Position numbers and translations under genes: made by a program. 64,000 nucleotides of DNA, taken from the NCBI GenBank assembly GCA_002238645.1, contig MPMT01000009.1, positions 1-64,000 of the forward strand, given 5' to 3'. Below are positions 24,544 to 43,383 of this stretch, piece after piece. Each line of letters begins with the position of its first letter. The first letter of the stretch is position 1. The stretch comes from Alphaproteobacteria bacterium bin52. Its GTDB lineage: Bacteria > Pseudomonadota > Alphaproteobacteria > Thalassobaculales > Thalassobaculaceae. The notes under the pieces are model-generated. The model was not told the DNA's origin and searched no databases. It saw only the letters and a program-made list of their open reading frames with translations.

Positions 24544-24565
24544 CGACACATGGTTCCGGCGGGAC

Positions 24566-25723: not shown

Positions 25724-25811
25724 GTTTCCCCTAGAATCCGGCCACGGTGGATGCAACCGGCGGGTCCAAATGGCCTGAAGCATGTCGTAGAAACATGTGC
25801 CGGTGGGTCAC

Positions 25812-25900
25812 CGCCTGCTCCGCCTCAAGCGCCTGCTCCGCCTCAAGCGCCTGCTCCGCCTCAAGCGCCTGCTCCGCCTCAAGCGCCTGCTCCGCCTCAT
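25812..25900 (+). repeat. Five tandem 18-bp units upstream of dctQ
   Basis: Four perfect copies of an 18-base unit (CGCCTGCTCCGCCTCAAG) run from 25812 to 25883. A fifth copy, from 25884, is identical until its last two bases, where CAT replaces CAAG. They fill most of the gap between dctP and dctQ. The unit is a multiple of three, and an open frame from 25747 passes through all units into dctQ, giving an Ala-Cys-Ser-Ala-Ser-Ser period. A recent slippage origin is likely because the copies have not diverged. Confidence 0.9.
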
Positions 25901-25941
25901 ATGTGTCGAGGCGTGGTCATGACGAACGGCAGGACCCGGCA

Positions 25942-26478: not shown

Positions 26479-27788
26479 TGGATGTCTTCGGCCTCACGGC
26501 CTTGTTTTTCGCCGCGATGTTCGGTTGCTTGGCGATCGGTGTGCCCATCGCCATCGCGTTGGGGGGCCTCAGCGCTGTTCTGGTCCTGATATTCTGGGGA
26601 CCAAACGCGCTCTCCATGATGGTTCTGAAGGCTTTTGGCAATACTTCAAGTTTCGAATTCCTGGCAATTCCGCTGTTCGTCTACATGGCAAACATGCTCG
26701 AGCGTTCGGGCATCGCGGAGGATCTCTATGAAACCATGTACCGGTTCGTCGGATCCCTCCGTGGTGGGCTCGCCGCTGGCACGGTAGCGATCTGCACGAT
26801 CTTCGCTGCGATGGCCGGAATCAGTGGCGCCGCGACGGTATCCATGGGGATCCTTGCCCTGCCAGCGATGTTGTCGCGCGGCTATTCGAAGCAGTTTGCA
26901 CTCGGCAGTGTAGCCGCCGGCGGATCGCTAGGCATCCTGATCCCGCCGAGCGTCACCATGATCATCTACGGCCTCATCGCAAATACCTCGATCGGCAAGT
27001 TGTACGCCGGTGGTGTGCTGCCCGGGCTCCTGCTTGCGTTGCTGTTCATAGCCTACATATTGATACGCGGAAAGCTTCAGCCAGAACTCGCCCCGGCCTT
27101 GCCGGAGGAGGATCGTTTCACCTGGCGCGAGAAACTCGTCTCGCTCACTGGTCTAATCTTCCCGCTTTTGCTAGTCGTTTGCGTGCTCGGTGCAATTCTA
27201 TCGGGCTTCACCAGCGTTTCCGAGGCGGCGGCTGTCGGGGCCTTCGGCAGTATCGTAGCGACCTTGATCAAGCGTGGCTTCAAGTGGCAAATGTTCCGCG
27301 AGGCCGCCGAGACAACGCTGCTGGTCTCTTGCTTGATATTCTGGATCATCATCGGGGCCAGCGCGTTTTCCACGCTGTACACTGCGATGGGTGCGTCCAG
27401 TCTGATCAACGACGCGGTTATCGGGCTCGAGGTCAATCGCTACGTCATCCTGCTCGCCATGCAGGGCCTCCTCATCCTGCTCGGCATGGTAATCGACACC
27501 GTCGGGATCATGATGATCACCATTCCGGTATTCCTGCCGATTATCTTGGCGTTGGGTTTCGACCCGGTTTGGTTCGGGGTCCTGTTCATAATCAATATGG
27601 AGATTGGCTTTCTGACGCCGCCGTTCGGCTACAACCTGTTCTATCTGAGGGGCGTGGCGCCGCCGAATGTGACGATGATCGACATTTATCGGTCGATCAT
27701 ACCGTTTGTCTTTCTCATGTTGCTCGGCTTGGCCATCTGCATATTGTTTCCGGAAATCATATTGACACTCCCGCGGATGTTGTTCTAG
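26478..27788 (+). CDS. dctM: TRAP transporter large membrane subunit
   Basis: A 436-residue DctM-family protein with about twelve membrane segments. It starts MDVFGLTALFFAAMFGCLAIGVPIA. The conserved parts are FEFLAIPLFVYMANMLERSGIAEDLY, the family motif AAMAGISGAATVSMGILALPAMLSRGYSK, the hairpin GGSLGILIPPSVTMIIYG and the C-terminal EIGFLTPPFGYNLFYLRGVAP. It uses a sodium gradient together with DctQ and DctP for import of organic acids. Composition is lower in GC than the flanking chromosome, as for its neighbours. Confidence 0.95.
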   Translation: MDVFGLTALFFAAMFGCLAIGVPIAIALGGLSAVLVLIFWGPNALSMMVLKAFGNTSSFEFLAIPLFVYMANMLERSGIAEDLYETMYRFVGSLRGGLAAGTVAICTIFAAMAGISGAATVSMGILALPAMLSRGYSKQFALGSVAAGGSLGILIPPSVTMIIYGLIANTSIGKLYAGGVLPGLLLALLFIAYILIRGKLQPELAPALPEEDRFTWREKLVSLTGLIFPLLLVVCVLGAILSGFTSVSEAAAVGAFGSIVATLIKRGFKWQMFREAAETTLLVSCLIFWIIIGASAFSTLYTAMGASSLINDAVIGLEVNRYVILLAMQGLLILLGMVIDTVGIMMITIPVFLPIILALGFDPVWFGVLFIINMEIGFLTPPFGYNLFYLRGVAPPNVTMIDIYRSIIPFVFLMLLGLAICILFPEIILTLPRMLF

Positions 27789-27864
27789 TTTCCCGGTAGA
27801 AGCGATATGAAAATGTGCAATTTTACAATACGTGCTTCGTACGATTCAGGGAGAAACCAGACGA

Positions 27865-29907
27865 ATGAGCCAATGGCAGGCCGGAATCGACGTTGGTGGC
27901 ACCAACACCGATTTGCTACTCCTTGAGCCGCAAAGCGGCGAGATCCGAGTAGAGAAAGTATCCTCGACGCCGGAGGACCAATCCAGAGGCGTAATTCGTG
28001 GGTTGGTGGAATCCAGGGTGCCGTTCAATCGGTTGACGGCAATCATTCACGGCACCACGATCGCAACCAACGCCGTACTTGAACGCAAGGGTGCACGGTG
28101 CGGCCTGATTACGACGCGCGGCTTCCGCGACATCCTGGAACTGGGTCGGCGCACCCGACCTCGAAACTATGGAATGATTGGCAGCTTCGAGGCACTGATC
28201 GACCGGTCGTTCCGTTTGGAGGTCGACGAGCGTATGGATGCGGGCGGCAGGGTTCTGACTTCACTCGATGAAGATCAGGTCCGGGATGCCTTGCAGGAGC
28301 TGCTGAAACTGGGCGCCGAGGCGGTTGTCATTCAGTTTCTGCACAGTTACGTCAATCCTACACACGAGCAGCGCGCCACCGAGATCGCGCGTGAGGTCTG
28401 GCCCAACGGATACGTCACGGCCAGCAGCGATGTCCTTCGCGAAGTGCGCGAGTTCGAGCGCGGTAGCACTGCGGCGGTCAATGCGTACGTTCAGCCCGTG
28501 TTGGCGCGATACCTTGGTCGACTATCCGACGAGCTTGCGTCCAACGGTTTCCCGAACCGCCTGTTGGTGATGCAAGGAAACGGGGGGATCATGGCCGCAG
28601 ATTTGGCGGTACGCCAGCCGGTGCAGACCGTGATGTCCGGTCCGGCCGCCGGCGCGATCGCCGCGGCCCACATTGGCCATCAGTCGGATTTTCCAAACCT
28701 GATCGCCTGCGACATGGGCGGCACCAGTTTTGACGTCAGTCTCATCCGCGACGGGATCCCGGTCGTATCGGCGGAAAAGGACCTCGCCTATGGAGTGCCG
28801 GTTCGGGTACCCATGGTCGACATCCATACCATCGGCGCCGGAGGTGGATCGATCGCGCGAGTCGACGCCGGCGGCATCCTGCGGGTCGGTCCGGAAAGTG
28901 CCGGCGCGATGCCGGGCCCCATCTGCTATGGCCGGGGCGGCTGCCGACCGACGGTCACCGACGCCAATGTCATCCTCGGTCGGGTCGATCCTGCGGAATT
29001 TTCCGGCATCGAAAGCAGCGCCGCGATCGAGGCGGTGGAAACGGCGTTGACCGAAAAGGTCGGGCGGCCGCTGGGCCTCGACAGCGTCGAGGCCGCATCG
29101 GCGATCCTGGCAGTGGCCGGCAACCAGCTCGCTTCGGCGATTCGGTTGGTGTCGATCGAGAAGGGAAACGACCCGCGCGACTTCGCACTGTTTCCCTTTG
29201 GCGGGGCAGGCGCCCTGCACGCCGTTGCACTGGCACGGGAGCTCGGCGTGCCGAATGTGCTGGTGCCGCGGTTCCCCGGTATCACATCGGCTCTCGGCTG
29301 CATGCTCGCTGACCTGCGGCACGATTTCTCCCATACGATCTGGAGGTCGCTTGCGGAGGTTGATCCCTCACACGCCGAGGCGGTGTTCGCCGAACAGGAA
29401 AGCAGAGGCCGCGCGATGATTGCCGAGGAAGGCGTGCCGATCGCCGACATCAAGGTAATCTTTGAAGCCGACTTGCTTTATCGAGGCCAGAGCCATGTAT
29501 TTCGCATACCAGTCTTAAGCCCAGGTTTTACACATGACAGTGTCGTCAAGACTCTCCGGGAACATTATCGCGCCCGGTTTGAAATCGAGTTGCACGAGAT
29601 GACCCCAGTTCTGGCAAGTCTGCGCACCACCGTGGTTGGCCGCCGCAAGCAGATCGATCTCGCGCTGTTTGGTGCCAACGCCAGTGCGGAGCGGCATCCC
29701 GACCCCATCGACAAGCGAGCGGTGTATTTTGAAAGCAGCTTTGTCGAAACCGCGATCTATGACCGGGAGATGATCGGCGCGGGCGCAGTGATCGAGGGGC
29801 CGGCAATTGTCCAGCAGGCGGATTCAACGATTGTGTTGGATCCGGGCGCAGTCGCGACGTCGGATCGCCTGGGCAACCTAACGATCGATGTTGGAAATGT
29901 AGTCTGA
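27865..29907 (+). CDS. hyuA: Hydantoinase/oxoprolinase subunit A (HyuA type)
   Basis: A 680-residue ATPase-type subunit of the N-methylhydantoinase, 5-oxoprolinase and acetone carboxylase family. The N-terminal phosphate loop reads GIDVGGTNTDLLLLE at residues 7-22, with HGTTIATNAVLERKG at about residue 67 and GYVTASSDVLREVREFERG at about residue 185. The second phosphate-binding region is IACDMGGTSFDVSLIRDG at about residue 290, followed by GAGGGSIARVDAGGILRVGPESAG. The enzyme uses ATP to open a cyclic amide or to carboxylate a ketone, together with HyuB. The start at 27865 is preferred over a TTG/ATG 11 codons earlier because the domain begins directly. Substrate not decided. Confidence 0.9.
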   Translation: MSQWQAGIDVGGTNTDLLLLEPQSGEIRVEKVSSTPEDQSRGVIRGLVESRVPFNRLTAIIHGTTIATNAVLERKGARCGLITTRGFRDILELGRRTRPRNYGMIGSFEALIDRSFRLEVDERMDAGGRVLTSLDEDQVRDALQELLKLGAEAVVIQFLHSYVNPTHEQRATEIAREVWPNGYVTASSDVLREVREFERGSTAAVNAYVQPVLARYLGRLSDELASNGFPNRLLVMQGNGGIMAADLAVRQPVQTVMSGPAAGAIAAAHIGHQSDFPNLIACDMGGTSFDVSLIRDGIPVVSAEKDLAYGVPVRVPMVDIHTIGAGGGSIARVDAGGILRVGPESAGAMPGPICYGRGGCRPTVTDANVILGRVDPAEFSGIESSAAIEAVETALTEKVGRPLGLDSVEAASAILAVAGNQLASAIRLVSIEKGNDPRDFALFPFGGAGALHAVALARELGVPNVLVPRFPGITSALGCMLADLRHDFSHTIWRSLAEVDPSHAEAVFAEQESRGRAMIAEEGVPIADIKVIFEADLLYRGQSHVFRIPVLSPGFTHDSVVKTLREHYRARFEIELHEMTPVLASLRTTVVGRRKQIDLALFGANASAERHPDPIDKRAVYFESSFVETAIYDREMIGAGAVIEGPAIVQQADSTIVLDPGAVATSDRLGNLTIDVGNVV

Positions 29908-29926
29908 GCGAAAGTGAGTAGTAGCC

Positions 29927-31588
29927 ATGACTCTTGATCCAGTCACGTTGGCTGTTATCGAAAACGGCCTGAACCAGATCTGTAGCGAGATGGACCTGGT
30001 GCACGAAAAGACCTCTTTCTCGCCGGTGATTTCGGAGGGCTTCGACCGATCGAACGGCATCTATGCCCTCGAAAACGGTCAAATGATCGCCCAGGGCGCT
30101 CTCGGTCTACCGATCTTTCTTGGCGTGATGCAGTTCGCGACCGAGGCGGTCATCGAGCTGCGAAACGATCTGGGACCCGGTGACATAGTTATCCAGAACG
30201 ATCCCTATTTGGGCGGCACCCACCTGATGGACGTAAAGATGGTCATGCCGTTCTATTACCGCGGCCGGCCCTGGTGTTACCTTTCCAATACCGGTCACTG
30301 GCCCGATACCGGCGGCATGGTGCCGGGTGGCTTCAACTCGACGGCAACGGAGATCCAGCAAGAGGGCTTGCGCCTGCCCCCGGTGAAGCTGATGGAGGGT
30401 GGCGAACTCTGCCAGGACATCATCGACATCATCCTCACCAACATTCGCGTACCCGAAGAGCGGATCGGCGACATCCGGGCACAAATTGGCGCACTCCGGA
30501 CCGGGGAGAAACGACTAACCGCCTTGCTCGACCGGTACGGAGCGGCGACCGTCGAGGCGGCGATCGCGGAGCTTCGGGCGCGTTCCGAGATGCAGATGCG
30601 CGCCTGCATCGAGGCGCTCGCGGACGGTACCTACAGCTTTACAAGCTACGTCGACAGCGACGGTGTGGTCAACGAACCATTGGCGGTCGCCCTCGACATG
30701 ACCGTGCAAGGCAGCGACATAACCTTCGATTTCTCCCGAGCGAGTCCCCCCTGCCGAGGACCAATGAACTGTGTCTGGGCGACGACACAGTCCGCGGTTT
30801 ACGTCGCCATGAAGCACATCTTTCCGGATGTGCCGATCAATTCCGGCTGCTTCGCGCCGCTTCATATCCCGAAACCCGGGGGCACCTTTCTGTATGCCGA
30901 ATACCCGCGACCGGTCGCCGGCTGCGCGGCAGAGGTTTCGCAACGGATCATGGAGGCGGTCTTTGGCGCCATGGGGCAAATCATTCCGGAACGCATGTTC
31001 GCGGCGCCGGCGGGGACCAGCGGTAACCTTGCACTCGGCGGATATGACCCTGAAGAAGACCAGAACTACATAATGTATCTTTTTTCGGGCGGCGGCTATG
31101 GCGGGTGGTGGGAGACCGATGGCCTGACCAACGGCTGTTCGACTGTCGGCATCTCCAAGACCCAACCGATCGAAATTCTCGAGCAGCACTATCCGTTGGT
31201 GTTCGAGGAATACGCGCTGCGCGAGGGCTCCGGCGGCGCCGGCCGTCATCGTGGCGGCTTCGGCGTGAGCTATCGAATTCGGCTGCTGCGCGGCGAGGGC
31301 AAGGCCTCTTTCCTGATGGACCATGGTCGTTTCGGTCCGCCAGGCCTGATGGGCGGTGAACCGGGCGCCACCAATCAGATCGAGATCTCCCAAGGCGGCA
31401 GTGTGGCGTTGCCCGAGCACATATCGAAAGGCGAAGGCTATACTCTGGAGCCTGGCGACTGGGTGCAGGTGCGAACTCCCGGCGGCGGCGGTTACGGCTT
31501 GCCGAGCGAGCGGCTGCCCGAGACAATTGAACGCGACCTCCGTCGCGGCTACTACTCCTCGGCAGGGCAACCGTCAGTTGCGGCATGA
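29927..31588 (+). CDS. hyuB: Hydantoinase/oxoprolinase subunit B (HyuB type)
   Basis: A 553-residue subunit B of the same family. It begins TLDPVTLAVIENGLNQICSEMDLVHEKTSFSPVISEG and shows DIVIQNDPYLGGTHLMDVKMVMPFYY at about residue 87, a conserved acid/His-rich loop probably involved in metal binding. It ends with the glycine-rich LRTPGGGGYGLP-like motif (VRTPGGGGYG). It starts 19 bases after hyuA and certainly forms the partner subunit. No gene follows in the same direction before the right-hand direct repeat. Confidence 0.92.
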   Translation: MTLDPVTLAVIENGLNQICSEMDLVHEKTSFSPVISEGFDRSNGIYALENGQMIAQGALGLPIFLGVMQFATEAVIELRNDLGPGDIVIQNDPYLGGTHLMDVKMVMPFYYRGRPWCYLSNTGHWPDTGGMVPGGFNSTATEIQQEGLRLPPVKLMEGGELCQDIIDIILTNIRVPEERIGDIRAQIGALRTGEKRLTALLDRYGAATVEAAIAELRARSEMQMRACIEALADGTYSFTSYVDSDGVVNEPLAVALDMTVQGSDITFDFSRASPPCRGPMNCVWATTQSAVYVAMKHIFPDVPINSGCFAPLHIPKPGGTFLYAEYPRPVAGCAAEVSQRIMEAVFGAMGQIIPERMFAAPAGTSGNLALGGYDPEEDQNYIMYLFSGGGYGGWWETDGLTNGCSTVGISKTQPIEILEQHYPLVFEEYALREGSGGAGRHRGGFGVSYRIRLLRGEGKASFLMDHGRFGPPGLMGGEPGATNQIEISQGGSVALPEHISKGEGYTLEPGDWVQVRTPGGGGYGLPSERLPETIERDLRRGYYSSAGQPSVAA

Positions 31589-31722
31589 CGGCAAGCGACT
31601 GCTCCGCGCGTTACCAACGGGCGGAAATGACAATCAAACCAGCCGGGAAACAGCCTGCTGAAGATGCATCGTCACCGCAGGACCGAACGCTTGCTCACGG
31701 AGAACTTCGGGTTAGCAGATCG

Positions 31723-31785
31723 CACAATCGACCCGCTTGAATGAAATCCCGTGCGACTGACCGTTCCTACGGCACAGGCTCCCAG
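31723..31785 (+). repeat. 63-bp direct repeat, right copy (probable IS end)
   Basis: This matches 24481-24543 in the same orientation, 51 of 63 positions, with both copies losing similarity right after CTCCCAG. No transposase gene accompanies this copy; the 134 bases between the hyuB stop and the repeat hold no recognisable coding part. It is read as a solo end left by deletion of an IS1182-type element, or the second end of a composite structure. The dioxygenase gene ending at 31797 begins 12 bases beyond it. Confidence 0.75.
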
Positions 31786-31796
31786 GGGCCGTCCAT

Positions 31797-32813
31797 CTAC
31801 GCCCGCGCTGGGTCGCTGTGACGGGGGCCGGCGCCCCGGGCGAAGCGGGCGTCATTGTAGATCTTGACCGTTGTGGGCGCGTAGAGCGGCGGGTGCCGGG
31901 CATCCACGCAGGTGCCGATGCAGGCGATCTGCGCGTCATAGTTCGGCCGCGTGAAATAGCCGATGGAAAGTCTGCGGGAGCGGGACCTCGCCTCGGCCTC
32001 CGGCACGGCCACCCGGTGCGGCGTCGACACCCAGCGGTCGTTGGTCCAGCGCATCAGCAGGTCGCCGATATTGACGACAAAGGTGTTGTCGATGGCTGGC
32101 GCGTCTATCCAGTCGCTGGCGCGCGGGCGCACCTGCAGGCCGCCGGCCGCCGCCTCGTTGCGCAGGATCGTCATCATGCCGAGGTCGGTGTGGACGCCGC
32201 AGCGCAACTGGCCGGGCTCGAGCTCGCGGTCGGGCGCGGGATAGTGCAGCAGGCGGAGCTGACTCGCATGGCGGTCGAGCTTGTCCAGAAACCAGTCCTC
32301 GGGAAGCCCGAGCGCCAGCGCGAAATACCGGGAGAGCCGGTGCGAAAGCTCTTCGAGCGCCAGGAAATACCCCTTCATCGCGGGTTCAAGGCCCGGTGGG
32401 CGGGCGGGCCAGAGATTGGGCGCGAAGTTCGGGTAGGAAAGCTCGTGCGAATGGTAGCGGTCGTCCGGCCGGCTGAACGGCCCGATGGTAAACACTTCCT
32501 TGTAGTCGGGCGGCGTGTCGCCGCCGTGCATCCGGGCCAGCGTTTCCTCGCCATAGGGGATGTAGCCGCGGTTCTGGTCGTGCTGCGGCCGGCGAACCAT
32601 CATCTTTGTTTCGAGCGGCAGGTCGAAGAATACCTGTGCGGAATCGTAGAGCGCCTGCTGGGCTTCTTCGGGCACGCCGTGATTGCCGACCACGACGAAA
32701 CCGATCTCGCGGCAAATGCCGTCCAGTTCGCGCGCGGCGGCGGCGACCGTCGCGGGGTTTCTGCTCTCGAAGCGCTGCAGGTCCAGTACGGGGATCGTGC
32801 GCGTAGCCATCAT
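31797..32813 (-). CDS. Isopenicillin-N-synthase-like Fe(II) dioxygenase (copy 1)
   Basis: A 338-residue 2OG-Fe(II) oxygenase of the isopenicillin-N-synthase-like group. The N-terminal DIOX_N domain reads IPVLDLQRF, then CREIGFVVVGNHGVPEE and AQVFFDLPLETKMM. The iron triad can be placed as His and Asp in CGVHTDLGMMT at about residue 215 and His in VSTPHRVAV at about residue 272. The co-substrate Arg and Ser lie in RRLSIGYFTRPNYDAQI at about residue 287. Family members catalyse hydroxylation, ring closure or desaturation on varied small molecules; these features do not identify a substrate. A paralogue lies at 37050-38039. It is divergent from the desaturase gene. The start is ATG at 32813, with a second ATG as next codon. 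Confidence 0.87.
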   Translation of the reverse strand: MMATRTIPVLDLQRFESRNPATVAAAARELDGICREIGFVVVGNHGVPEEAQQALYDSAQVFFDLPLETKMMVRRPQHDQNRGYIPYGEETLARMHGGDTPPDYKEVFTIGPFSRPDDRYHSHELSYPNFAPNLWPARPPGLEPAMKGYFLALEELSHRLSRYFALALGLPEDWFLDKLDRHASQLRLLHYPAPDRELEPGQLRCGVHTDLGMMTILRNEAAAGGLQVRPRASDWIDAPAIDNTFVVNIGDLLMRWTNDRWVSTPHRVAVPEAEARSRSRRLSIGYFTRPNYDAQIACIGTCVDARHPPLYAPTTVKIYNDARFARGAGPRHSDPARA

Positions 32814-32979
32814 GCCTCCTCGCTCGCCGGCGGGATGGGGCCGCCCGACGCGGCGATCATGCCACGAAGTGCCCGCATTGTCTTGCGCCGGGGCGGTTTC
32901 CGGGACTGGGCGGCATCTTGTTGTTCCGCGCCGCGCCCGCGATTAAAGTGGCGCGGATCGCGGCCTTGCGGACAATGCC

Positions 32980-34128
32980 ATGCACCCAAAGGCGACAGGA
33001 ATAGCGCCGGATGAATCGCTGCCGCCCGCGGAGTTTCGAAGGAAGCGCCCGCTCCGCTGGTACCGCTGTCCGGTCGAGCCCTCCGAGCTTCGCGCGCTCG
33101 TACAACGCAGCGACACGCGCGGACTGTTTCAGGCGGTCGGGCACCTGGCCATCTGGCTTGTAACCGGCGCGTCGGCCTTACTTTTCTTTCAGCAGGAGAT
33201 CTGGTGGGCGTTCGCCGTCGCCCTGTTCCTTCACGGCACGGTTGCTTCGTTCTTCACCGCGCCCCATCACGAGCTGTGCCACGCCACCGTGTTCCGGACG
33301 CGGTGGCTCAACGAGTTCTTCCTGCGGGTATTCTCCTTCCTCGGCTGGCTGAACTTCCACATCTACAGGTTCAGCCACACCTACCATCACCGCAACACGC
33401 TGTTTCCCGAGGGCGACCGCGAGGAGGTGATGCCGGAGACGCCGTCCCTCCACCCGCTCTACCTGCTTCAGCTCTTCACCGTAAATCTGACGGGCGGATA
33501 CCAGTCGCGAGGCCTGGTCCCCAACCTGAAGCAGTTCGTCAGGATCGCGCTCAACCGGTTCGACAATCCCTTCAATTCATGGGGACCGGAGCTTTACGAG
33601 GGGTTCCCGAAGCAGCGTGCGAAAGCGAAGGCATGGGCCCGGACCGTGCTGGGCCTGCATGCGGTGGTGACCGTCTTCTCGATCGGGATCGGGGAACCCA
33701 TCCTCGCCGTCATCGTTTCCGGCTCGCCGTTCATCGCCAACTGGCTCCGGTACTTCGCCGGTGTGACGCAGCATTGCGGGCTCAGGAGTAATGTCGCCGA
33801 TTTCAGGAAGTGCGTCCGGACCGTCACGCTCGATCCCGTGACGGAGTTCCTCTACTGGCACATGAACTGGCATCTGGAGCACCACATGTTCGTCGTGGTG
33901 CCCTGCTACAACCTGAAGAAGCTGCATCGCACGGTGCGGGAGGACATGCCGCCGCCCCGCACGCTGATCGGCGCATGGCGCGAGATGCGCGAGACCTGGA
34001 AACGCCAGCAGCTGGATCCCGGCTATGCGTTCGATACACCGGTTCCAGCATCCCGGTCCCGGGAACGCGGCGTTGCAGACCCGCTCGCCGCCTCGATGGG
34101 AGGCCTGGCGCCCAGTGAAATCGCCTGA
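32980..34128 (+). CDS. Membrane fatty-acid-desaturase family protein
   Basis: A 382-residue membrane di-iron enzyme. The three histidine boxes are HHELCH at about residue 90, HTYHH at about residue 128 and HLEHH at about residue 290, with further His at GVTQHCG. Four membrane segments are arranged in pairs around residues 50-80 and 205-255. The spacing fits acyl-lipid desaturases and also related hydroxylases or beta-carotene-ketolase-like enzymes, so desaturation is not proven. No ferredoxin or reductase gene is adjacent. It is transcribed divergently from the dioxygenase gene across a 166-base gap. Confidence 0.85.
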   Translation: MHPKATGIAPDESLPPAEFRRKRPLRWYRCPVEPSELRALVQRSDTRGLFQAVGHLAIWLVTGASALLFFQQEIWWAFAVALFLHGTVASFFTAPHHELCHATVFRTRWLNEFFLRVFSFLGWLNFHIYRFSHTYHHRNTLFPEGDREEVMPETPSLHPLYLLQLFTVNLTGGYQSRGLVPNLKQFVRIALNRFDNPFNSWGPELYEGFPKQRAKAKAWARTVLGLHAVVTVFSIGIGEPILAVIVSGSPFIANWLRYFAGVTQHCGLRSNVADFRKCVRTVTLDPVTEFLYWHMNWHLEHHMFVVVPCYNLKKLHRTVREDMPPPRTLIGAWREMRETWKRQQLDPGYAFDTPVPASRSRERGVADPLAASMGGLAPSEIA

Positions 34129-34337
34129 GTTTTCCGGAGTCTTCGCTGCATGCGACCGTCCGCTGGTTTCTGCGCCAGGCGGAAACCCGGACGGCGACCG
34201 GGCTCGTCCCGGGCGTGGGATGGGTGTTTGTCGCCTGGATGACGCTCGATATCTCGTATCCCTTCGTGCGGGCGATGATGCCGCTCGACACCGTCTGGTC
34301 TCCGGAAACGGCGCTGGCCGTTTTCGTCATGCGGGCG

Positions 34338-34662
34338 CGCGAGGTCGGGAAGCGTCGCATCGTTGCGAAGAGCTCCGCGCCCGGCGTACCGGTGTCGGCG
34401 GTGGCGAAGCGCCATGCCATCAGCGCCAATCTGCCTTTCGACTGACGGCGCAGGCCTCGCGAGAACGATGGAGAGATCCGCCCCGGAGCGTTCGTTCCGG
34501 TAGCAGTCGCGTCGCCCCGGGCGAGGTGTTTCGGACGATGGCCTTGGTCCTCAGTCGGACGGGTGGATGGAGATTGTGCCGGACGGTTGCTTGCGGGTAG
34601 TTGTCGACGCGACGGTCAATGCTCCGGCGCTGGCCCGGGTACTGGCGGTTCCGGAACCGCGA
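34338..34662 (+). pseudogene. IS66-family tnpA remnant
   Basis: From 34338 the frame reads REVGKRRIVAKSSAPGVPVS, then AVAKRHAISANLPFD before a TGA at 34443. This matches the helix-turn-helix region of IS66 TnpA, where the stop position is normally the Trp of a FxWRR motif; RRR follows the stop directly. After a frameshift the C-terminal part reappears at 34567 as MEIVPDGCLRVVVDATVNAP, followed by ALARVLAVPEPR and a stop at 34663-34665. The gene is clearly dead. Confidence 0.75.
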
Positions 34663-34795
34663 TGATCCCGGTTCTGGCCGGTGTCCGGCTATGGCTGGCA
34701 ACGGACATGCGGCGTGGCATGAACACCCTGTCCCTCCAGGTCCAGGTGGGTCCTGGGCACGATTCCCATCCGGGAGGCCTTATTTCTTCGCCTGA
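34662..34795 (+). pseudogene. IS66-family tnpB remnant
   Basis: The ATG at 34662 overlaps the tnpA stop as ATGA, the normal IS66 arrangement. It reads MIPVLAGVRLWLATDMRRGM, then NTLSLQVQ, matching the start of IS66 TnpB but missing about three residues (GHT) before DMRRGM. Similarity is lost after roughly 40 codons, near a LISS that should be the LFVFRG motif. No tnpC is present. Confidence 0.75.
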
Positions 34796-34857
34796 TCCCG
34801 GTCTTGCAAGTGGCTTTGCTGTCAATCTCTTGCATCAGGATTTTCTGGCAAAGGGAG

Positions 34858-36003
34858 TCAGGCGAGCGCGGCGTAGAGGGCATCCACCAGAGCGCTGAGG
34901 CGGGGGCTGATGCCGGGGCCGGAATACATGCGGTTGGGCGCGTAGGCGAAGCCGAGGCCCGCATCCGGGTCCGCAAAGCCGATGGCGCCGCCCGCGCCGG
35001 TGTGCCCGAAGGCGCGCGGGCTCGGCCCCATCGCCAGATGCCCCGGCAGGCCGAGCGCGAAGCCAAGTGCCATCCGCCGGGTGTGGCCGAGCAGATCTTC
35101 CCTGCCGTGCCATTGTTCTGTCGTGGCTTCCGCCAGAATGTCCGCGCCCAGCAGGCGCCTGCCGTCCAGCACGCCGCCGGCGGCGAGGCCGTCGAAGAGC
35201 TTCGCTACGCCGCCTGCGGTGCCGATGCCGTTGATCGAAGGGATTTCCGCAGCGCGGAACTGTCCGGTGTTAAAATCCTGCGGCGGCACCTGCGCCATTG
35301 CCCGACACATGAGGGAGTCCGGGTCCGAGCGGTCGAACAGCGTGCCGGCGGTCTCGCCGAAGAATTCCGCGCACCGCCCGTGCAGCGCCGGCGGCAGGCC
35401 GATCCAGTAGTCGATGCCGTGCGGTGCGCAGACCTCCTCGGCGAGGAAACGCCCGAGGCTCCGCCCGTCGGTGCGCCTTATCAGCTCGCCGACCAGGTAG
35501 CCCAGGGTCACGGAATGGTAGGCGCGCGACCTGCCCGGCGCAGACAGCGGCGCCTGCACGGCCAGCGCCCCGGTCATCGAGTCCCAGTCGTATGCAGCAC
35601 CTTCGGGCATGTCCTGCGCGATGGCCGCTAGGCCGGCGCGGTGGTCGAGAACCCATCGCACGGGAATACCGACCTTGCCGGCGGCCGCGAATTCGGGCCA
35701 GTAGCGCGCCACCGGCTCATCCCATGCGATCAGCCCCCGGTCCACGGCCATCGCGGCGCAGAGCGCGGTCACGGCCTTCGCTACCGACATCATGCAGACC
35801 AGTGTGTCCTCCGCCCAGGGGCGGGTGCGGGCGCTATCGGCGAAGCCGCCCCACAGATCGACCGCCGGCTCCCCGTTCAGGGTGACGGCGATGGCCGCGC
35901 CGACTTCGCCGCGGCTGCGGAAATTCTCCGCGAAGGCGTCGGCCACCCCGGCGAAACGCCCCTCGCAATGGCCGTCGACACGCACGCTGTCCGCTACCTG
36001 CAT
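34858..36003 (-). CDS. Serine hydrolase of the beta-lactamase (class C-like) fold
   Basis: A 381-residue soluble protein of the beta-lactamase/EstB esterase family. The nucleophile motif is SVAK (S-x-x-K) at about residue 73 in VCMMSVAKAVTALCA, the Tyr of the second motif is in SRAYHSVTLGYLVGEL at about residue 160, and the third motif is HTGAGGAIGFADP at about residue 335 in place of K-T-G. There is no signal peptide, which argues for a cytosolic esterase or amidase rather than a secreted beta-lactamase. It overlaps the upstream dehydrogenase gene by 10 bp, so the two probably act in one pathway. Confidence 0.87.
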   Translation of the reverse strand: MQVADSVRVDGHCEGRFAGVADAFAENFRSRGEVGAAIAVTLNGEPAVDLWGGFADSARTRPWAEDTLVCMMSVAKAVTALCAAMAVDRGLIAWDEPVARYWPEFAAAGKVGIPVRWVLDHRAGLAAIAQDMPEGAAYDWDSMTGALAVQAPLSAPGRSRAYHSVTLGYLVGELIRRTDGRSLGRFLAEEVCAPHGIDYWIGLPPALHGRCAEFFGETAGTLFDRSDPDSLMCRAMAQVPPQDFNTGQFRAAEIPSINGIGTAGGVAKLFDGLAAGGVLDGRRLLGADILAEATTEQWHGREDLLGHTRRMALGFALGLPGHLAMGPSPRAFGHTGAGGAIGFADPDAGLGFAYAPNRMYSGPGISPRLSALVDALYAALA

Positions 36004-36878
36004 TTCCTGTCCCCGTCGATGACCTCAATCAGCGAGGGCCAATAGGCGTCGCCGAGGCCGGCGGCGACGGCGCGTTGCAGCAGGCCGTGTGTTGCATCCA
36101 TGCCCCCGAGCGTCATCCCCAGCGACTCCTTCAGTTTCATGACATAGTCGAGGTCCTTCAGCATGTAGCGCGTCGGGAACCGGCCTTCGGGAAAGCGGCC
36201 CGGCAGCAGGGCCGTCATGCCGTGCTGGCGGAGCGCAAAGCTGTCGCACCCGTTTCGGAAGGCTTCGAACAGGCGTGCGCCGTCCACGCCCGCGCGGCGG
36301 CCGAGCAGCAGGGCTTCCGCTAGCGCGGTGACGGACTGGGCGAGCACCATGTTCAGCAGCAGCTTGGTGACCGTGCCGCTCCCGCTTCCTCCGCAATGCT
36401 GGACCATCCGGGCCATGCATTCCAGCAGCGGTGCCAGCCGGGCGAATGTCCGCTCGTCGGTTCCGACCATGATGCTGATATCCCGGTCTGCGACCGATCC
36501 GACGGTCCCGGCGACCGGAGCATCGACATAGCGCGCGCCCTTCTCAGCAAAGGCGGCAGCAAGCTCGCGGGTCAGGTCCAGCGGAACCGTGCTGCAATCG
36601 ACGATGACCGCGCCGGTGTCTGCATGGGCCAGCAGCCCGCCCCCGCCCAGGCAGACGAGGCGGACCTCCGCCGCGCCCGGCAGCGACAGGAAGACGATGT
36701 CGCAATCGCGCGCCACCCGCACGGGGTCCGCGGTCGCAACGCACCCCTCTCGGACGCACCGGGAGCGGGCCGCAGGGTCGATATCGTGGACAGTTGCGGG
36801 GAGGCCGGCGCGGCGGACGAGATTCCGGCACATGGGCCCGCCCATGGCGCCGAGCCCGATGAACCCGAGGGTCGTCAA
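35994..36878 (-). CDS. Beta-hydroxyacid dehydrogenase (HIBADH/GarR family)
   Basis: A 294-residue NAD(P)-dependent dehydrogenase. The Rossmann motif GFIGLGAMGGPM starts at residue 5, followed by VHDIDPAARSRC, where an acidic residue suggests NAD preference. The substrate-binding motif is VDAPVAGTVGSVADRDISIMVG at about residue 115; it departs slightly from the usual DAPVSGG. The catalytic Lys is in GTVTKLLLNMVLA at about residue 170, and the C-terminal helix contains YMLKDLDYVMKL. Candidate substrates are 3-hydroxyisobutyrate, tartronate semialdehyde or related short beta-hydroxyacids. It is coupled to the beta-lactamase-fold hydrolase by a 10-bp overlap. Confidence 0.88.
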   Translation of the reverse strand: MTTLGFIGLGAMGGPMCRNLVRRAGLPATVHDIDPAARSRCVREGCVATADPVRVARDCDIVFLSLPGAAEVRLVCLGGGGLLAHADTGAVIVDCSTVPLDLTRELAAAFAEKGARYVDAPVAGTVGSVADRDISIMVGTDERTFARLAPLLECMARMVQHCGGSGSGTVTKLLLNMVLAQSVTALAEALLLGRRAGVDGARLFEAFRNGCDSFALRQHGMTALLPGRFPEGRFPTRYMLKDLDYVMKLKESLGMTLGGMDATHGLLQRAVAAGLGDAYWPSLIEVIDGDRKCR

Positions 36879-36952
36879 CTCGACCGCACTCGCGCCTGCC
36901 CGCCGAGCCGTTCGGATTGAAATGGACTCGTCCGCAGAGCCTCGCCCGTTAC

Positions 36953-36969
36953 CCCGGCTCGGTGCCGGG
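36953..36969. repeat. Short palindrome in an alphaproteobacterial-type intergenic repeat
   Basis: CCCGGC and GCCGGG flank a five-base loop and are followed by GATGACG. The arrangement resembles the abundant intergenic palindromes of alphaproteobacteria built around CCCGG...CCGGGAT. It lies in the 171-base gap between two minus-strand genes and could also act as a weak terminator for the upstream dioxygenase gene, though no T-run follows. Confidence 0.35.
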
Positions 36970-37049
36970 ATGACGAAAAGCAGTGCGGAGACCGGGGTGA
37001 CGATTCTGGGCTCGGACCGGAATATGAGTCCATCAGAAAGAAATCCGCT

Positions 37050-38039
37050 CTAGCCGTCGATCCGGCGTTCCAGCTTTTCGCGCATGTGGTCGCCGGCCAT
37101 GATCCGGGGGTATTTCGCCGGGTTGCCGGGGCCACAGCAGCCTTCCAGGCAGTCGATCTCGGCGTCGTAGTTCGGGTGGAGGAAATAGCCGATGGTCTGG
37201 CGGCGGCTTTCCCCGCGCCGTTCCGCCGGTGGATTGACGACGCGGTGGACGGTGGATTTCCAACGGTCGTTGGTCCAGCGCTGCATCATGTCGCCCAGAT
37301 TGACGACCAGCTGCCCCGGCCCGGGCCGGACATCCAGCCAGGAGCCGTCGGGCATCTGCGCCTGCAGGCCACCCGGCGCATCGTTGAAGGCGAGGATCGT
37401 CAGGCTGCCGAAATCGGTGTGTGCCCCGCAGCGGAGCTGGCCCGGCTGCGGGTCGTCCTGGATGACGGGGTAGTGGTTTGACGGACAGGTGCTGAAATGC
37501 CTGTCGATCTTGTTGTCGAAGAACGCCTCGGGCAGCCCGAGCGCCACAGCGAAAATCCCCATCAGACGCTCTGCGAGGACCTCGAACGCACTGTAGAACT
37601 CCGTGAAGATCTCCCGGTATGCGGCGGGACGAGACGGCCAGATATTCTCCGAGTAGTAGAGCGCGGCCTCCGGAATATGGGCGAGCCGGTCGGCCTGCGG
37701 GACCAGGGGGCCGATGAAGAACTGCTCCCGCAGATCGGGCGGCGTCTCCTGCCCGTAGGTGCGCGCCAGGTTCCGCGTCGCAACGGCGTGGTAGCCGCGC
37801 GGCGCCACGCCGTCTTCCGGCATGAAGCGCGCCTTTTCCTCGACGGGCAGGTCGAAGAACGCCCGCGAGACCGAAAAGGCGCGGTCGATGACCTCCTGCG
37901 GGATGCCGTGGCCCGAGACAATCAGGAAGCCGACGGTCTCGCAGGCCCGAGCGACCTGCCCGGCCACCTCCTGCCGGTCGACGTCAGTGCCGGACCGCCA
38001 GGGGGCGAGATCAATAACCGGAATTGTGCCGATGGCCAT
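37050..38039 (-). CDS. Isopenicillin-N-synthase-like Fe(II) dioxygenase (copy 2)
   Basis: A 329-residue paralogue of the protein at 31797-32813. It starts MAIGTIPVIDLAPWRSG at the ATG at 38039; the frame is open to 38456, but the extra 139 residues show no domain. The iron ligands are His and Asp in CGAHTDFGSLT and His in KSTVHRVVNP; RRQTIGYFLHPNYDAEID carries the co-substrate Arg. Both copies share the unusual RWTNDRW-x-ST stretch just before the last His and a Cys-rich tail (CLEGCCGPGNPAKY here). That points to duplication within this lineage or to a shared subfamily. Substrate unknown. Confidence 0.87.
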   Translation of the reverse strand: MAIGTIPVIDLAPWRSGTDVDRQEVAGQVARACETVGFLIVSGHGIPQEVIDRAFSVSRAFFDLPVEEKARFMPEDGVAPRGYHAVATRNLARTYGQETPPDLREQFFIGPLVPQADRLAHIPEAALYYSENIWPSRPAAYREIFTEFYSAFEVLAERLMGIFAVALGLPEAFFDNKIDRHFSTCPSNHYPVIQDDPQPGQLRCGAHTDFGSLTILAFNDAPGGLQAQMPDGSWLDVRPGPGQLVVNLGDMMQRWTNDRWKSTVHRVVNPPAERRGESRRQTIGYFLHPNYDAEIDCLEGCCGPGNPAKYPRIMAGDHMREKLERRIDG

Positions 38040-38565
38040 GCTTGGGGGAGTCCCTTTCCCGGATGTGCCCGCCGGGACAGTGTAATACCGGCAGTCATCG
38101 ACGCAAACCGATAGCGTCGGCGCCTTTTTCGCCGCTCCCGCGAACACCATCACCCCGGACCTGAACCGGGATCCATCCCTGCCCGCAATGCCGACGCAGT
38201 CGGTGGAGGCAACGCTCGACCGCCGGAGCCTGCTCCGGACCCCGACCCGGGGCTGCCGCGAGAACCGAGGCTGGACTCCGGAACAGGTCCGGCAGACCTT
38301 GGTGACCGGTCCGGACACCGGTGGCAGGATGGCGTGGTTCAGTCCGCCGGGCCGGTGGAACGTGGCCGGAGTCCCCGGGCTTCGTCTCCTGGCCCCGCGG
38401 TCGTGCCGGGGCGACGGGTGCACACAATATCTGGCGTGGTTTTCCGGGGGGTCCACAAGCAGGCCTTGAGAGGCGGCGGCGTGCGGACTATGTTTGCGCG
38501 CAGACTTCGGCTAGAACCACAGGGGCCGGGCGCATCATGGTCAGGTAGCGAATACGAGGAGAGCC
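38040..38565. other. Divergent intergenic region rich in palindromes
   Basis: A 526-base gap between a minus-strand dioxygenase and a plus-strand dehydrogenase. It contains CCCGG (38154-38158) pairing with CCGGG (38166-38170) in an alphaproteobacterial-type repeat. CCGGAG (38223-38228) pairs with CTCCGG (38233-38238) around a four-base loop. A promoter candidate lies near its right end. I see no gene; the open frames are composition-driven. Confidence 0.45.
38466..38494 (+). promoter_or_regulatory. Candidate sigma70 promoter for the D-2-hydroxyacid dehydrogenase
   Basis: TTGAGA (38466-38471) is separated by exactly 17 bases from TATGTT (38489-38494). The -35 matches the consensus at five of six positions, the -10 at four. 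It lies 71 bases before the start codon of the next plus-strand gene. Confidence 0.4.
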
Positions 38566-39507
38566 ATGAAGGTCACGACGGGGCATGACTTCTACCTGCA
38601 GGTTGGCGAAAGGGCCGAGGCGATCGTGCCGGGTATCGAATGGGCGACCGTTGACGGGTCGGGGAACTGGTCGGGCTCACCCGAGGGATCGGACCTGATC
38701 GTCTACGCCGGCGAGGCCTATCGCACGGAATGGGTCGACGCCGTCTGTTCAATGGATCCCGCGCCGCGCTGGGCGCATACCGAGGACGCCGGCATCGACG
38801 GATACTTTTACGACGTGATGCGGGAGAAGAGGGTGCCGGTCACCCACAGCCCGGGCGCCAACGCGCCCGAAGTCGCGGAACTCGCGTTCTCCGGCGTCAT
38901 GTGGGGCGCGAAGCGGCTCGACCGGCTGCATGGCCAGCAGCGGGCGCACGAGTGGAAGAAGTTCGAACTCCAGGCCATGAGCGCCGGGACCGTACTTGTC
39001 GTCGGGCTCGGGGCCATCGGCGCCAGGGTTGCCGGCTACGCGAAGGCCTTCGGCATGCGTGTGCTCGGGATCAGGCGGTCGGGCGGGACGGTGGCCGGGG
39101 TTGACCAGCAGGGGACGCCGGCGGATCTCGACGAGTTCCTTGCGCAGGCGGACTACGTGGTGCTCGCGATTCCGATCAGTGACGAGAGCACGGGAATGAT
39201 CGACGCCGGTGCCTTTGCCCGAATGAAGCCGACCGCAACACTGGTCAATGTCGGTCGTGGCGCGCTGGTTGACCTCGACGCCCTGCGAGACGCGCTTGCA
39301 ACCGGTCAGATTGCCTGCGCCTTCCTTGACGTCCTTCCGGTGGAGCCCTGGCCGGCCGACGATGACCTGTGGGATATCCCCAACCTGTTCATCACACCGC
39401 ATATCGGCTCTTCGTCACCGCTCTACGCGGTGCGGGTCGGCGAGATGTGGCTCGAGAACCTCGCACGCTTCGCTCGCGGCGAGTCGTTCCTCTACCGGGC
39501 ATTTTGA
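38566..39507 (+). CDS. D-isomer-specific 2-hydroxyacid dehydrogenase
   Basis: A 313-residue NAD(P)-dependent dehydrogenase of the GhrA/PGDH superfamily. The cofactor-binding motif is VLVVGLGAIGARVAGYAKAFG at about residue 143, followed by GIRRSGG, where Arg residues suggest NADP use. The catalytic Arg is in VNVGRGALVD at about residue 232, the Glu in LPVEPWPADDDLW at about residue 262 and the His in FITPHIGSSSP at about residue 281. GGAGAG lies 5 bases before the ATG. The adjacent PuuD-like gene starts 27 bases downstream on the same strand, so they may be co-transcribed. Confidence 0.9.
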   Translation: MKVTTGHDFYLQVGERAEAIVPGIEWATVDGSGNWSGSPEGSDLIVYAGEAYRTEWVDAVCSMDPAPRWAHTEDAGIDGYFYDVMREKRVPVTHSPGANAPEVAELAFSGVMWGAKRLDRLHGQQRAHEWKKFELQAMSAGTVLVVGLGAIGARVAGYAKAFGMRVLGIRRSGGTVAGVDQQGTPADLDEFLAQADYVVLAIPISDESTGMIDAGAFARMKPTATLVNVGRGALVDLDALRDALATGQIACAFLDVLPVEPWPADDDLWDIPNLFITPHIGSSSPLYAVRVGEMWLENLARFARGESFLYRAF

Positions 39508-39534
39508 TCTCAAGCGGGTTTCCGGAGTCACTCG

Positions 39535-40332
39535 ATGACACGCCTGTCCCATGCCGTTCCTGCGGTCGGCATCATCTGCAACCTCAGGATCGATGGTGTT
39601 CACCGCCAGCACACCACCGGTGAGCGCAATGCCACCTCGGTGCTCGGGCTCGCCGGCGCGATGCCGCTGCTGGTCCCGGCGCTGGGCGAGCTGATCGATC
39701 CTGACCGGCTGTTCGGGGTCGTTGACGGGATCCTGCTGACCGGCGGTGCCTCCAACATGGAACCGCACCTCTACGGCCAGGACTGCGCACCGGGCGAGGA
39801 CGTGCGTGACCCGGGCCGGGACAGCCTCGCCATTGCGCTCGTGCGCCGCGCGGTCGCGCTTGGCGTCCCGCTGCTCGGAACCTGCCGCGGCATCCAGGAA
39901 ATCAACGTCGCGCTGGGAGGGACCCTGCACCAGCGTCTCCACGAGGTTCCGGGCCGCGACGACCACCGGCGCAACCGCGAGCAGCCGATCGAGATCTCGG
40001 TCGGACCGCGCCAGCGCATCACGCTGCGTGACGGGGGCATCCTCGCCTCGCTCATGGAGGAAGGGGAGGCGATGGTCAATTCCCTGCACGGCCAGGGGAT
40101 CGACCGGCTGGCTCCGGGTCTCGAGATCGAGGCGGTGGCAGATGACGGAACCATCGAGGCGGTCGGGGTGAGGTCGGCCCGTTCGTTTGCCCTCGGCGTG
40201 CAGTGGCACGTCGAGATCGATGCCGAAAACCAGCCGCTGAACCGGGCCATCCTGGAGGCGTTTGGCCGCGCCGTGCGGGAGCGCGCCGCCGAGCGGTCGG
40301 AAGGCGCCTGGAGAGCGATGGCGGCCGAGTAG
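39535..40332 (+). CDS. puuD: Gamma-glutamyl-GABA hydrolase-like class I amidotransferase (PuuD type)
   Basis: A 265-residue peptidase C26 family protein that should hydrolyse a gamma-glutamyl amide such as gamma-glutamyl-GABA from putrescine breakdown. The nucleophile Cys lies in LLGTCRGIQEINVALGG at about residue 120, the catalytic His in GVQWHVEIDAE at about residue 222, and the family's GILLTGGASNMEPHLYG segment at about residue 68. No glutamine synthetase-like puuA is adjacent. The stop lies 5 bases from that of the convergent amine oxidase gene, an arrangement that suggests an amine-degradation locus. Confidence 0.87.
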   Translation: MTRLSHAVPAVGIICNLRIDGVHRQHTTGERNATSVLGLAGAMPLLVPALGELIDPDRLFGVVDGILLTGGASNMEPHLYGQDCAPGEDVRDPGRDSLAIALVRRAVALGVPLLGTCRGIQEINVALGGTLHQRLHEVPGRDDHRRNREQPIEISVGPRQRITLRDGGILASLMEEGEAMVNSLHGQGIDRLAPGLEIEAVADDGTIEAVGVRSARSFALGVQWHVEIDAENQPLNRAILEAFGRAVRERAAERSEGAWRAMAAE

Positions 40333-40337
40333 GAGGT

Positions 40338-42185
40338 TCAGCCCGGCAGGTCGAGACAGGGATTTCGATCGAAGAACCCCGATGGCATCAGCCTGAAGCC
40401 GCAGGGCGCGCAGGGCTGCACCGGAAAATCCTCGGTCCTCGGCTGGTGATGCAGGCCGAACACGTGCCAGAGCACCAGGTCGGCGTTGACCAGCGGCCGG
40501 TCCTGTTCGATCCAGGTTGCAACTCCGTCACTGCCGTCGGACTGGTTGACGAACTCTCCCGCCGGAAAGCGTTCGCTCCGGTCGTGCGCCGTGACCCACA
40601 GATGGTTGCGGGTGAAGGCCGAACGTGTGCCTGACGGCGATCCCGGAAGCACGAACGGCGTGACACAGCTGGTCGGCTCCAGCCGGTAGCCGGTCGGCCT
40701 GCCGACCACGTTCTTCCGGTTGGTGTTCACCACCTTCCAGTATCGCTGGGTGGCGGGATTCGCCCGTCTCGCCGCCACCGTTTCGCTCTCGAGGACCGTC
40801 TCCTCCTCGAAATAGGCGTTGCCCCACGGGTTGCGCTCGGGAGGCTCGACCTGGGTGTTGCACTCGATGGCCGTGTTCGCGTCGCCGTCCACCGCCATGT
40901 CAAGCCGCGCGCAGAAGAGGTGCTGGTGGATCTGGCCGACCACGCCCGGCGCGACTTCCCTGCCATGGCGCGCCGGCTCGCCCGGCACGCAGGCGGTGGT
41001 GTTGATGATGCCGGTTGCCTTCATATCGAACTCGATCGAGCCGTCGAGATGCAGGTACCAGTAGTAGCCGTAGTCGTAGTTTCCGACCGTGATGATGCTC
41101 GATATCACCAGGCGCCGTGCCCGGCGAACTTCGACCTGTCCGCTGCGCTGGTCGCGGTGCTTCCACAGGATGCCGGCGTCTTCCTCGTGGATGCAGATCG
41201 CATTGTCGATCCGAACCAGGTCGCCGTGGATGTCGGTGACCCAGGCGTCGAGGTAGCGGATCGCGCCCAGGCAGTCGCAGCCCAGCCTGAGCGAGTTGGC
41301 GAGCTTGCCGGCGCCGTACTCCCCGACATCGAACACGTTCTTGCGGTAGTGCGCCCGGTCGGGCGAGCCGTAGGGGACCACCATCTCCGCGATCGAGGCA
41401 CGGTAGACCACCGGACGGCCGCCGTACCGGATGTCGTGCAGGGTAACCGCCTCGCGACCGTTGAACCCGATCACCAGTTCCCACTCGTGCCAGGTAATCC
41501 GGTGACCGTCGAGTTCGAAGCTGACGCCGTCGGGCTGGACGATGTCGATCGCCCGCAGGTCGCTGCGCGGCTCACGGGAGCCCGAAGCATACTCGTGGCT
41601 GCCGCCCGGCACGGGAGTGACGCCGTGGTCGTCGACCTGGAGCACCTGGAGCCTGCGGATGTCGACGACGGCGTTGAGCCCCTCGAGCGGGTAGGCGTAG
41701 AAGTTCTCGCCCTCCTCCGGCCTGACCCAGCAGAAGACGTGGCAGACGTGGCGGTTCTCCTCGTCCCCGTGCCCGAACCGGCCGGCGGACCAGGGATCGC
41801 ACATCACCCGGTTCATGTCCGTGATCCCGCGCCTGCCGCAGGCCTCGATGAAGGCGGGATCGGCGCGTACCAGGTCCTCGATTCCGGCAAGCTGTTCCGG
41901 CTGGATCATCGGCCGCGCCGCCGGATAATGGGTGACCGAGAGCACCTCGCCCTCGTCGAGCCCGACCACCACGTGCCATGCACCGATTGTCTCCGCGGGG
42001 AAGACCACGAGGCGCGCCCGCCGGCGTACCGGATCTCCCGGCCGGTGGCTGCGCACCTCCTGCTTCGCCGGCTCCTCGAGCTCCACGGTCTCGAACAACA
42101 GGTTCGGTGGCAGTTCCGGGTACTCCCGGACGACGGCGATCGCCCGATGCATTTCCTGGTCCGACAACGGATGAAGCGGGTGCAT
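40338..42185 (-). CDS. Copper/topaquinone amine oxidase
   Basis: A 615-residue primary-amine oxidase that converts a primary amine to aldehyde, ammonia and hydrogen peroxide. The topaquinone precursor is the Tyr of TVGNYDYGYYWYLHLDG at about residue 378 (consensus N-Y-D/E). The catalytic-base Asp lies in RYLDAWVTDIHGD at about residue 300. Copper ligands are in GQIHQHLFCARLDM at about residue 430 and the later NHLWVTAHD region. No signal peptide is visible, so the enzyme is probably cytosolic, as in other phenethylamine- or histamine-oxidase-type bacterial forms. GGGAG lies 8 bases before the ATG. The symbol tynA is withheld because substrate preference is not visible. Confidence 0.92.
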   Translation of the reverse strand: MHPLHPLSDQEMHRAIAVVREYPELPPNLLFETVELEEPAKQEVRSHRPGDPVRRRARLVVFPAETIGAWHVVVGLDEGEVLSVTHYPAARPMIQPEQLAGIEDLVRADPAFIEACGRRGITDMNRVMCDPWSAGRFGHGDEENRHVCHVFCWVRPEEGENFYAYPLEGLNAVVDIRRLQVLQVDDHGVTPVPGGSHEYASGSREPRSDLRAIDIVQPDGVSFELDGHRITWHEWELVIGFNGREAVTLHDIRYGGRPVVYRASIAEMVVPYGSPDRAHYRKNVFDVGEYGAGKLANSLRLGCDCLGAIRYLDAWVTDIHGDLVRIDNAICIHEEDAGILWKHRDQRSGQVEVRRARRLVISSIITVGNYDYGYYWYLHLDGSIEFDMKATGIINTTACVPGEPARHGREVAPGVVGQIHQHLFCARLDMAVDGDANTAIECNTQVEPPERNPWGNAYFEEETVLESETVAARRANPATQRYWKVVNTNRKNVVGRPTGYRLEPTSCVTPFVLPGSPSGTRSAFTRNHLWVTAHDRSERFPAGEFVNQSDGSDGVATWIEQDRPLVNADLVLWHVFGLHHQPRTEDFPVQPCAPCGFRLMPSGFFDRNPCLDLPG

Positions 42186-42217
42186 TCCAAGGTCTCCCAG
42201 TTCGGAAGAACTGGCCG

Positions 42218-43327
<1,110 letters not shown>

Positions 43328-43383
43328 GAACTTCCCTCCCGCAAGGCAAACGGTTCGCTGCTGCGTGACCGGTCGGAGATCGG

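Follow-up and report, generated by a model that had tools for sequence, protein, structure and literature searches.

Genes for NMT1 proteins and for isopenicillin N synthase (IPNS)-like, or pcbC-like, dioxygenases have been described under the control of xanthine riboswitches, and purine substrates are expected for their products, although the same work states that the exact roles of the riboswitch-linked oxygenases are not established (Yu and Breaker, PMC7373994). Here, we analysed a window of 64,000 nucleotides (the whole stretch studied, positions 1 to 64,000 of contig MPMT01000009.1, assembly GCA_002238645.1) from Alphaproteobacteria bacterium bin52, whose genome (G000) comprises 4.2 Mb in 120 contigs. 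In this window two IPNS-like oxygenases, labelled OxyA and OxyB, enclose a desaturase, a hydrolase and a beta-hydroxyacid dehydrogenase. OxyB differs from these NMT1-pcbC pairs in having neither an NMT1 gene nor a riboswitch and in being tied to the dehydrogenase and the hydrolase; its sister clade, however, likewise has an NMT1-like gene directly upstream. A sequence-only reading had placed all five genes and a following D-2-hydroxyacid dehydrogenase in one possible degradation or tailoring pathway. Of that proposal, OxyB, the beta-hydroxyacid dehydrogenase and the hydrolase (the trio, or cassette) hold together, being adjacent in ten genomes, while OxyA, the desaturase and the D-2-hydroxyacid dehydrogenase drop out. 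We consider it probable (about 0.68) that the minus-strand interval 34858–38039 is a translationally coupled catabolic operon of three genes, with OxyB, the dehydrogenase and the hydrolase acting as steps of one pathway, possibly in that order. The reading is built on gene order, frame overlap, co-conservation, intact catalytic residues and purifying selection. The enzyme families are known ones, but their combination is apparently undescribed, and no description of an oxygenase-dehydrogenase-hydrolase combination was found in open-access full-text literature.

Conservation of the trio

Each protein was searched against 41 related genomes and the hydrolase also against 84,980 species genomes, and the window proteins were mapped onto the fetched loci (genomes and loci carry our G and L numbers). 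The trio loci are the window, G001/L007, L008, L009, L010 (=G387), L011, L012, L013, L014 (=G007) and G005/L051. The contigs of L008 and L009 end at the dehydrogenase, so OxyB was not judged there, and L015 and L047 end inside the hydrolase and were left uncounted. Neighbours in L062, L063 and L070–L072 are known only through tblastn with the window proteins (the gene caller is based on GC content at third codon positions, GC3), and an OxyB homologue at G016:C326 (53% identity) lies outside the fetched loci.

Twelve loci carry the hydrolase at an identity of at least 76%. The dehydrogenase lies directly upstream of it in all 10 readable loci, and OxyB directly ahead of the dehydrogenase in all eight in which this could be read. 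Among 385 sampled genomes of the class, hydrolase matches above E 1e-110 came from five, the window's own included. The G387 hydrolase (89%) is accompanied by the trio; the distant hydrolases of G077 (63%), G183 (52%) and G378 (51%) have neither partner gene nearby. Likewise, 32 further homologues at 28–46% identity (L016–L046, L048) showed no OxyB nearby and only two distant dehydrogenase-like genes.

The overlap of the dehydrogenase and hydrolase frames, already pointed out in the sequence-only reading, measures 10 bp in the window, G001 and L012, and 4 bp in L009, L010, L013 and L014. The start is ambiguous at the L051 junction; apart from the window, seven junctions were readable, and six of them have a 10- or 4-bp overlap. 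L014 additionally has a 4-bp overlap between the frames of OxyB and the dehydrogenase. Pairwise ratios of nonsynonymous to synonymous substitution rates were 0.12–0.28 for OxyB, 0.23–0.30 for the dehydrogenase and 0.13–0.22 for the hydrolase (six comparisons each), and these low values indicate purifying selection on all three genes. Thus, the trio is a conserved unit, tight but narrow. The suggestion that hydrolase and dehydrogenase act as coupled steps gains support from this kept adjacency, and of the co-occurrence proposed for the patch, only that of the three trio genes is borne out.

Catalytic residues and relatives of the three enzymes

The Pfam domains of both oxygenases, the desaturase, the hydrolase and both dehydrogenases all score above cut-off, which agrees with the families first assigned. 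No patch gene exceeds any NCBIfam equivalog cut-off, so family membership gives no substrate.

OxyB is a DIOX_N/2OG-FeII_Oxy oxygenase by its domains and its H-x-D...H triad. In a 21-row alignment its iron ligands (H207-x-D209...H265) are invariant and Y190 and R280-x-T are conserved; with R280-x-T/S and Y190 present, the enzyme is predicted to use 2-oxoglutarate (2OG). The thymine dioxygenase 5c3p, the structural-genomics protein 3oox and the EFE-named 9ovh share with OxyB the fold domains, the H-x-D...H and R-x-S/T ligands and a similar motif region ahead of the last His, and thymine dioxygenase is among its best solved relatives. Full-length similarity to these DIOX_N 2OG-Fe(II) oxygenases is nevertheless low, and OxyB stands in its own clade with the cassette. 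Its structural model, built from an alignment of 9 rows, which is too shallow, reached a mean predicted local distance difference test score of 55.6 and was not used for a fold search.

The RWTNDRW motif and Cys-containing tail, which had been taken as a mark of paralogy between OxyA and OxyB, are indeed present in both, but they are not specific to the pair. An exact RWTNDRW occurs in 19 of the 21 oxygenase open reading frames (ORFs) that HTD/HRV patterns picked from the loci, a set in which a few genes are entered twice, with different locus ids. The 21-row alignment, with identities as low as 37%, shows no variation at R, W, N, D and R of the motif and conserves the two tail Cys at a level of at least 90%. 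By these alignments, motif and tail characterise the whole subfamily and give no special link between OxyA and OxyB. Maximum-likelihood analysis joined OxyB and its cassette partners in a single supported clade (8 rows, 99/99), part of a wider group to which the NMT1-linked oxygenases also belong, and placed OxyA with its orthologues and a further paralogue from G000; on the sequence tree the two thus fall in separate clades. IPNS-like 2OG oxygenases occur at six places in G000. A second OxyB-like gene, at about 1450–1830 of L006 (G000:C103), is decayed, with only the C-terminal third readable (~127 amino acids, 65% identity), and adjoins a proline-racemase-like gene, as judged by eye.

The dehydrogenase has the Rossmann Gly motif, D119-A-P-V and the catalytic K172 and N176 of the beta-hydroxyacid dehydrogenase superfamily, the last three elements being invariant in the alignment. 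It shares the Gly-rich motif, DAPV, Lys and Asn with 3-hydroxyisobutyrate dehydrogenase, tartronate semialdehyde reductase and 3pdu, but at 175–177 bits against NCBIfam cut-offs of 292–397 it is neither of the two named enzymes proper; it stays below every equivalog cut-off, so no known substrate can be assigned. Its acidic D32 presumably indicates NAD as the cofactor.

In the hydrolase, S73-x-x-K76, Y162 and G333-H334-x-G336 are invariant. It aligns over its full length with carboxylesterases of the EstA/EstB type (solved examples 5gmx, 5gkv and 7y3z), which we take to be those named family VIII, and shares their S-x-x-K, Tyr and W/H-x-G (here H-x-G) motifs; it differs from them in being genomically coupled to a dehydrogenase and an oxygenase. 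The first description, a beta-lactamase-fold hydrolase without a signal peptide, holds (Pfam Beta-lactamase above cut-off; no signal peptide at the N-terminus, judged by eye), and the protein is predicted to be a cytosolic serine hydrolase of the family VIII type. The fold invites the idea of beta-lactam biosynthesis or resistance, with a beta-lactamase beside true isopenicillin N synthases, yet the resemblance is at the level of fold only. The best relatives of the hydrolase are carboxylesterases/EstA (E 1e-81) against 1e-15 for AmpC, its best AmpC-type score is 54 bits against class C cut-offs of 415 bits and more, and it lacks a signal peptide. The oxygenases match IPNS at E ~1e-9 to 1e-11 but other 2OG oxygenases at 1e-44 to 1e-46, so that IPNS is not the closest characterised relative, and NCBIfam gave no match. 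No ACV (aminoadipyl-cysteinyl-valine) synthetase was found among those neighbouring genes that were scanned for families. We give beta-lactam chemistry next to no credence.

Could OxyB act on a purine or a related N-heterocycle, with the cassette as a purine-derived catabolic module? In seven of nine readable loci of the sister clade (L056–L060, L065 and L066, but not L053 and L061; Pfam tests in five, inspection by eye in two), the oxygenase gene directly follows an NMT1-like substrate-binding gene, the arrangement described for xanthine riboswitches with pcbC-like dioxygenases (PMC7373994). The kinship with thymine dioxygenase and a molybdenum hydroxylase gene adjoining one cassette locus (L012) point the same way. 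Against this, Rfam found no xanthine riboswitch (RF03054) in the window or in ten homologue loci, the cassette loci L007–L014 and L051 lying outside the scan, and none in the 41 related genomes, where the positive controls were silent too. The only riboswitch found in 385 class genomes, in a single one of them, stands beside an oxygenase 27–33% identical and outside the OxyB clade; moreover, NMT1-like proteins serve many ligands. On these scans, OxyB does not count among the riboswitch-linked purine oxygenases as defined by an upstream RF03054. We know of no ester- or lactam-type hydrolase among the enzymes of purine pathways. Purine-like substrates for OxyB are possible but not supported, and we regard a purine module as rather unlikely.

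Neighbouring genes and the rearranged block

The positions of the five patch ORFs and of the D-2-hydroxyacid dehydrogenase proved exact and show strong GC3 coding bias (Table 1); the mechanically called OxyB ORF extends past 38039 to 38456.

Table 1. Genes and other features of the locus.
Feature	Position	Strand	Description and basis
Left rearrangement boundary of the block	31600-31783		relative to sister species G001; comparison with G001
OxyA	31797-32813	-	second 2OG/Fe(II) oxygenase, separate clade; neighbour only in this genus; DIOX_N + 2OG-FeII_Oxy
Membrane desaturase/hydroxylase-like protein	32980-34128	+	FA_desaturase, three His boxes; neighbour only in this genus
Desaturase-hydrolase spacer	34129-34857		transposase-like remnants (IS66-type by eye); different insert in sister species
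Family-VIII-carboxylesterase-like serine hydrolase, beta-lactamase fold	34858-36003	-	Pfam Beta-lactamase
Dehydrogenase/hydrolase frame overlap	35994-36003	-	10 bp; junction comparison
Beta-hydroxyacid dehydrogenase (3-hydroxyisobutyrate dehydrogenase-like)	35994-36878	-	TTG start; NAD_binding_2/11
OxyB, 2-oxoglutarate/Fe(II) oxygenase	37050-38039	-	first gene of the operon; DIOX_N + 2OG-FeII_Oxy
Right rearrangement boundary of the block	38155-38170		relative to G001; comparison with G001
D-2-hydroxyacid dehydrogenase	38566-39507	+	2-Hacid_dh_C; part of flanking D-2-hydroxyacid dehydrogenase-PuuD-like-amine oxidase-formaldehyde dehydrogenase block, outside the operon

The whole patch from OxyA to OxyB could still form one degradation or tailoring pathway, as was first proposed. 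The sister species retains block 31784–38170 as a whole, though inverted, at ~93% DNA identity, and OxyA orthologues (at least 67% identity, in eight of the 41 genomes) and desaturase homologues are found in largely the same genomes, seven shared of eight each; for these two reasons the proposal retains a small chance. The arrangement is, however, confined to this genus. Neither the desaturase nor the cassette is near OxyA at any of six loci outside it; there OxyA orthologues have different neighbours, such as luciferase-like oxidoreductases in G007. In other genera the desaturase homologues (51–54% identity) lie elsewhere, with no OxyA beside them in the four loci fetched, and a second copy of this kind is present in G001. 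At its other loci the cassette has neither OxyA nor the desaturase alongside, the desaturase is encoded on the other strand, and differing inserts part the two halves of the patch: the desaturase-hydrolase spacer differs in sequence between the window and G001. One spacer fragment matched HTH_Tnp_1 at E=0.0067, below cut-off, and a second matched nothing, so that an IS66-type insertion-sequence remnant is only a weak reading. A single pathway for the patch is thus improbable. We read OxyA and the desaturase as functionally unrelated to the trio, beside which they stand only in this genus, in a stretch that is rearranged and rich in insertions.

In G001 the interval 31784–38170 is inverted relative to 38155–59632, which puts the D-2-hydroxyacid dehydrogenase on the OxyA side of the block instead of the OxyB side, and the block of tripartite ATP-independent periplasmic (TRAP) transporter and hydantoinase/oxoprolinase (hyuAB) genes (24565–31599) is on another contig. 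The adjacency of the D-2-hydroxyacid dehydrogenase and hyuAB is therefore recent or labile, and neither belongs to the operon. A mobile unit with terminal repeats was considered and rejected, the 16-bp stretch common to both alignment ends being no real inverted repeat; the block is rearranged, but comparison of its ends gave no mobile element boundary. Genes for a TacA-type antitoxin with a GNAT protein and for an AbiEii-type toxin lie at the edges of the inverted block in G001 (L007 9793–10814, L049 17324–18950). As a stable partner of the cassette, hyuAB was likewise rejected: it is near the cassette in the window, L013 and L014, but as different paralogues, in genomes with a marked expansion of hyuB (11–25 copies in each of the four examined, G000, G001, G005 and G007), and it lies on the other contig in G001.

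Several further observations concern the flanks. The TRAP-hyuAB block has lower GC (57–62%), and its closest NCBIfam models are caprolactamase alpha/beta, below cut-off. Interval 38566–43983, kept in the sister species, holds the D-2-hydroxyacid dehydrogenase, a C26 peptidase resembling gamma-glutamyl-gamma-aminobutyrate hydrolase, a copper amine oxidase, a glutathione-dependent formaldehyde dehydrogenase and a CoxG-like protein; it looks like an amine/aldehyde catabolism patch. An ORF at 22742–24370 (minus strand) fuses an N-terminal IS1182-family transposase fragment to a BMP-type substrate-binding protein and is an insertion-sequence remnant ahead of an ATP-binding cassette (ABC) transporter operon. 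Elsewhere in G000 (L055, C30, 5185–7157), an OxyA paralogue (57%) is followed directly by another 3-hydroxyisobutyrate-dehydrogenase-like gene, as also in G001 (L075), and this is a second oxygenase-dehydrogenase pairing.

Possible function of the cassette

The neighbours of the cassette vary with lineage. A LIV-type ABC transporter and a coenzyme A-transferase adjoin it in L010 and lie near it in L008 and L013 (by eye, tblastn), a peptide-type ABC transporter adjoins it in L051, a major facilitator superfamily transporter and the molybdenum hydroxylase, of the xanthine dehydrogenase family, in L012, and an aminotransferase is near it, with hyuAB, in L014. Such transport and catabolic neighbours favour catabolism of an imported compound. 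We infer a common pathway, its catabolic direction and its chemistry. OxyB would hydroxylate a small substrate, the NAD-dependent beta-hydroxyacid dehydrogenase would oxidise the alcohol formed, and the hydrolase would act on the product or on a neighbouring intermediate, cleaving an ester, amide or lactone/lactam bond; the steps may also follow in another order.

Several points weigh against a catabolic operon. The gap between OxyB and the dehydrogenase is 171 bp in the window, compared with ~17 bp or a 4-bp overlap in several other loci, so OxyB could be under its own control here. The trio is confined to two families within the sampled class, and common descent thus accounts for part of the kept gene order. 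No regulator gene lies inside the operon, and no transporter or other catabolic gene is common to all cassette loci, to point to one substrate class. A tailoring role for the trio is conceivable but not favoured.

It is a tentative and fairly unlikely extension that the trio is a new minimal pathway of uncultured Alphaproteobacteria, in which OxyB, from the sister group of the NMT1-linked pcbC oxygenases, would activate an N-heterocycle or cyclic amide and the dehydrogenase and hydrolase would oxidise and ring-open it. If true, this would give the oxygenase subfamily of OxyB its first function and would place a ring-opening hydrolase outside the usual amidohydrolases. Among the many IPNS-like 2OG oxygenases of these bacteria, few have a known function. 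For the catabolic operon itself, the trio limits the chemistry to an alcohol acceptable to the dehydrogenase and a bond cleavable by a family VIII esterase, so that purifying the three proteins and screening them against metabolites becomes feasible.

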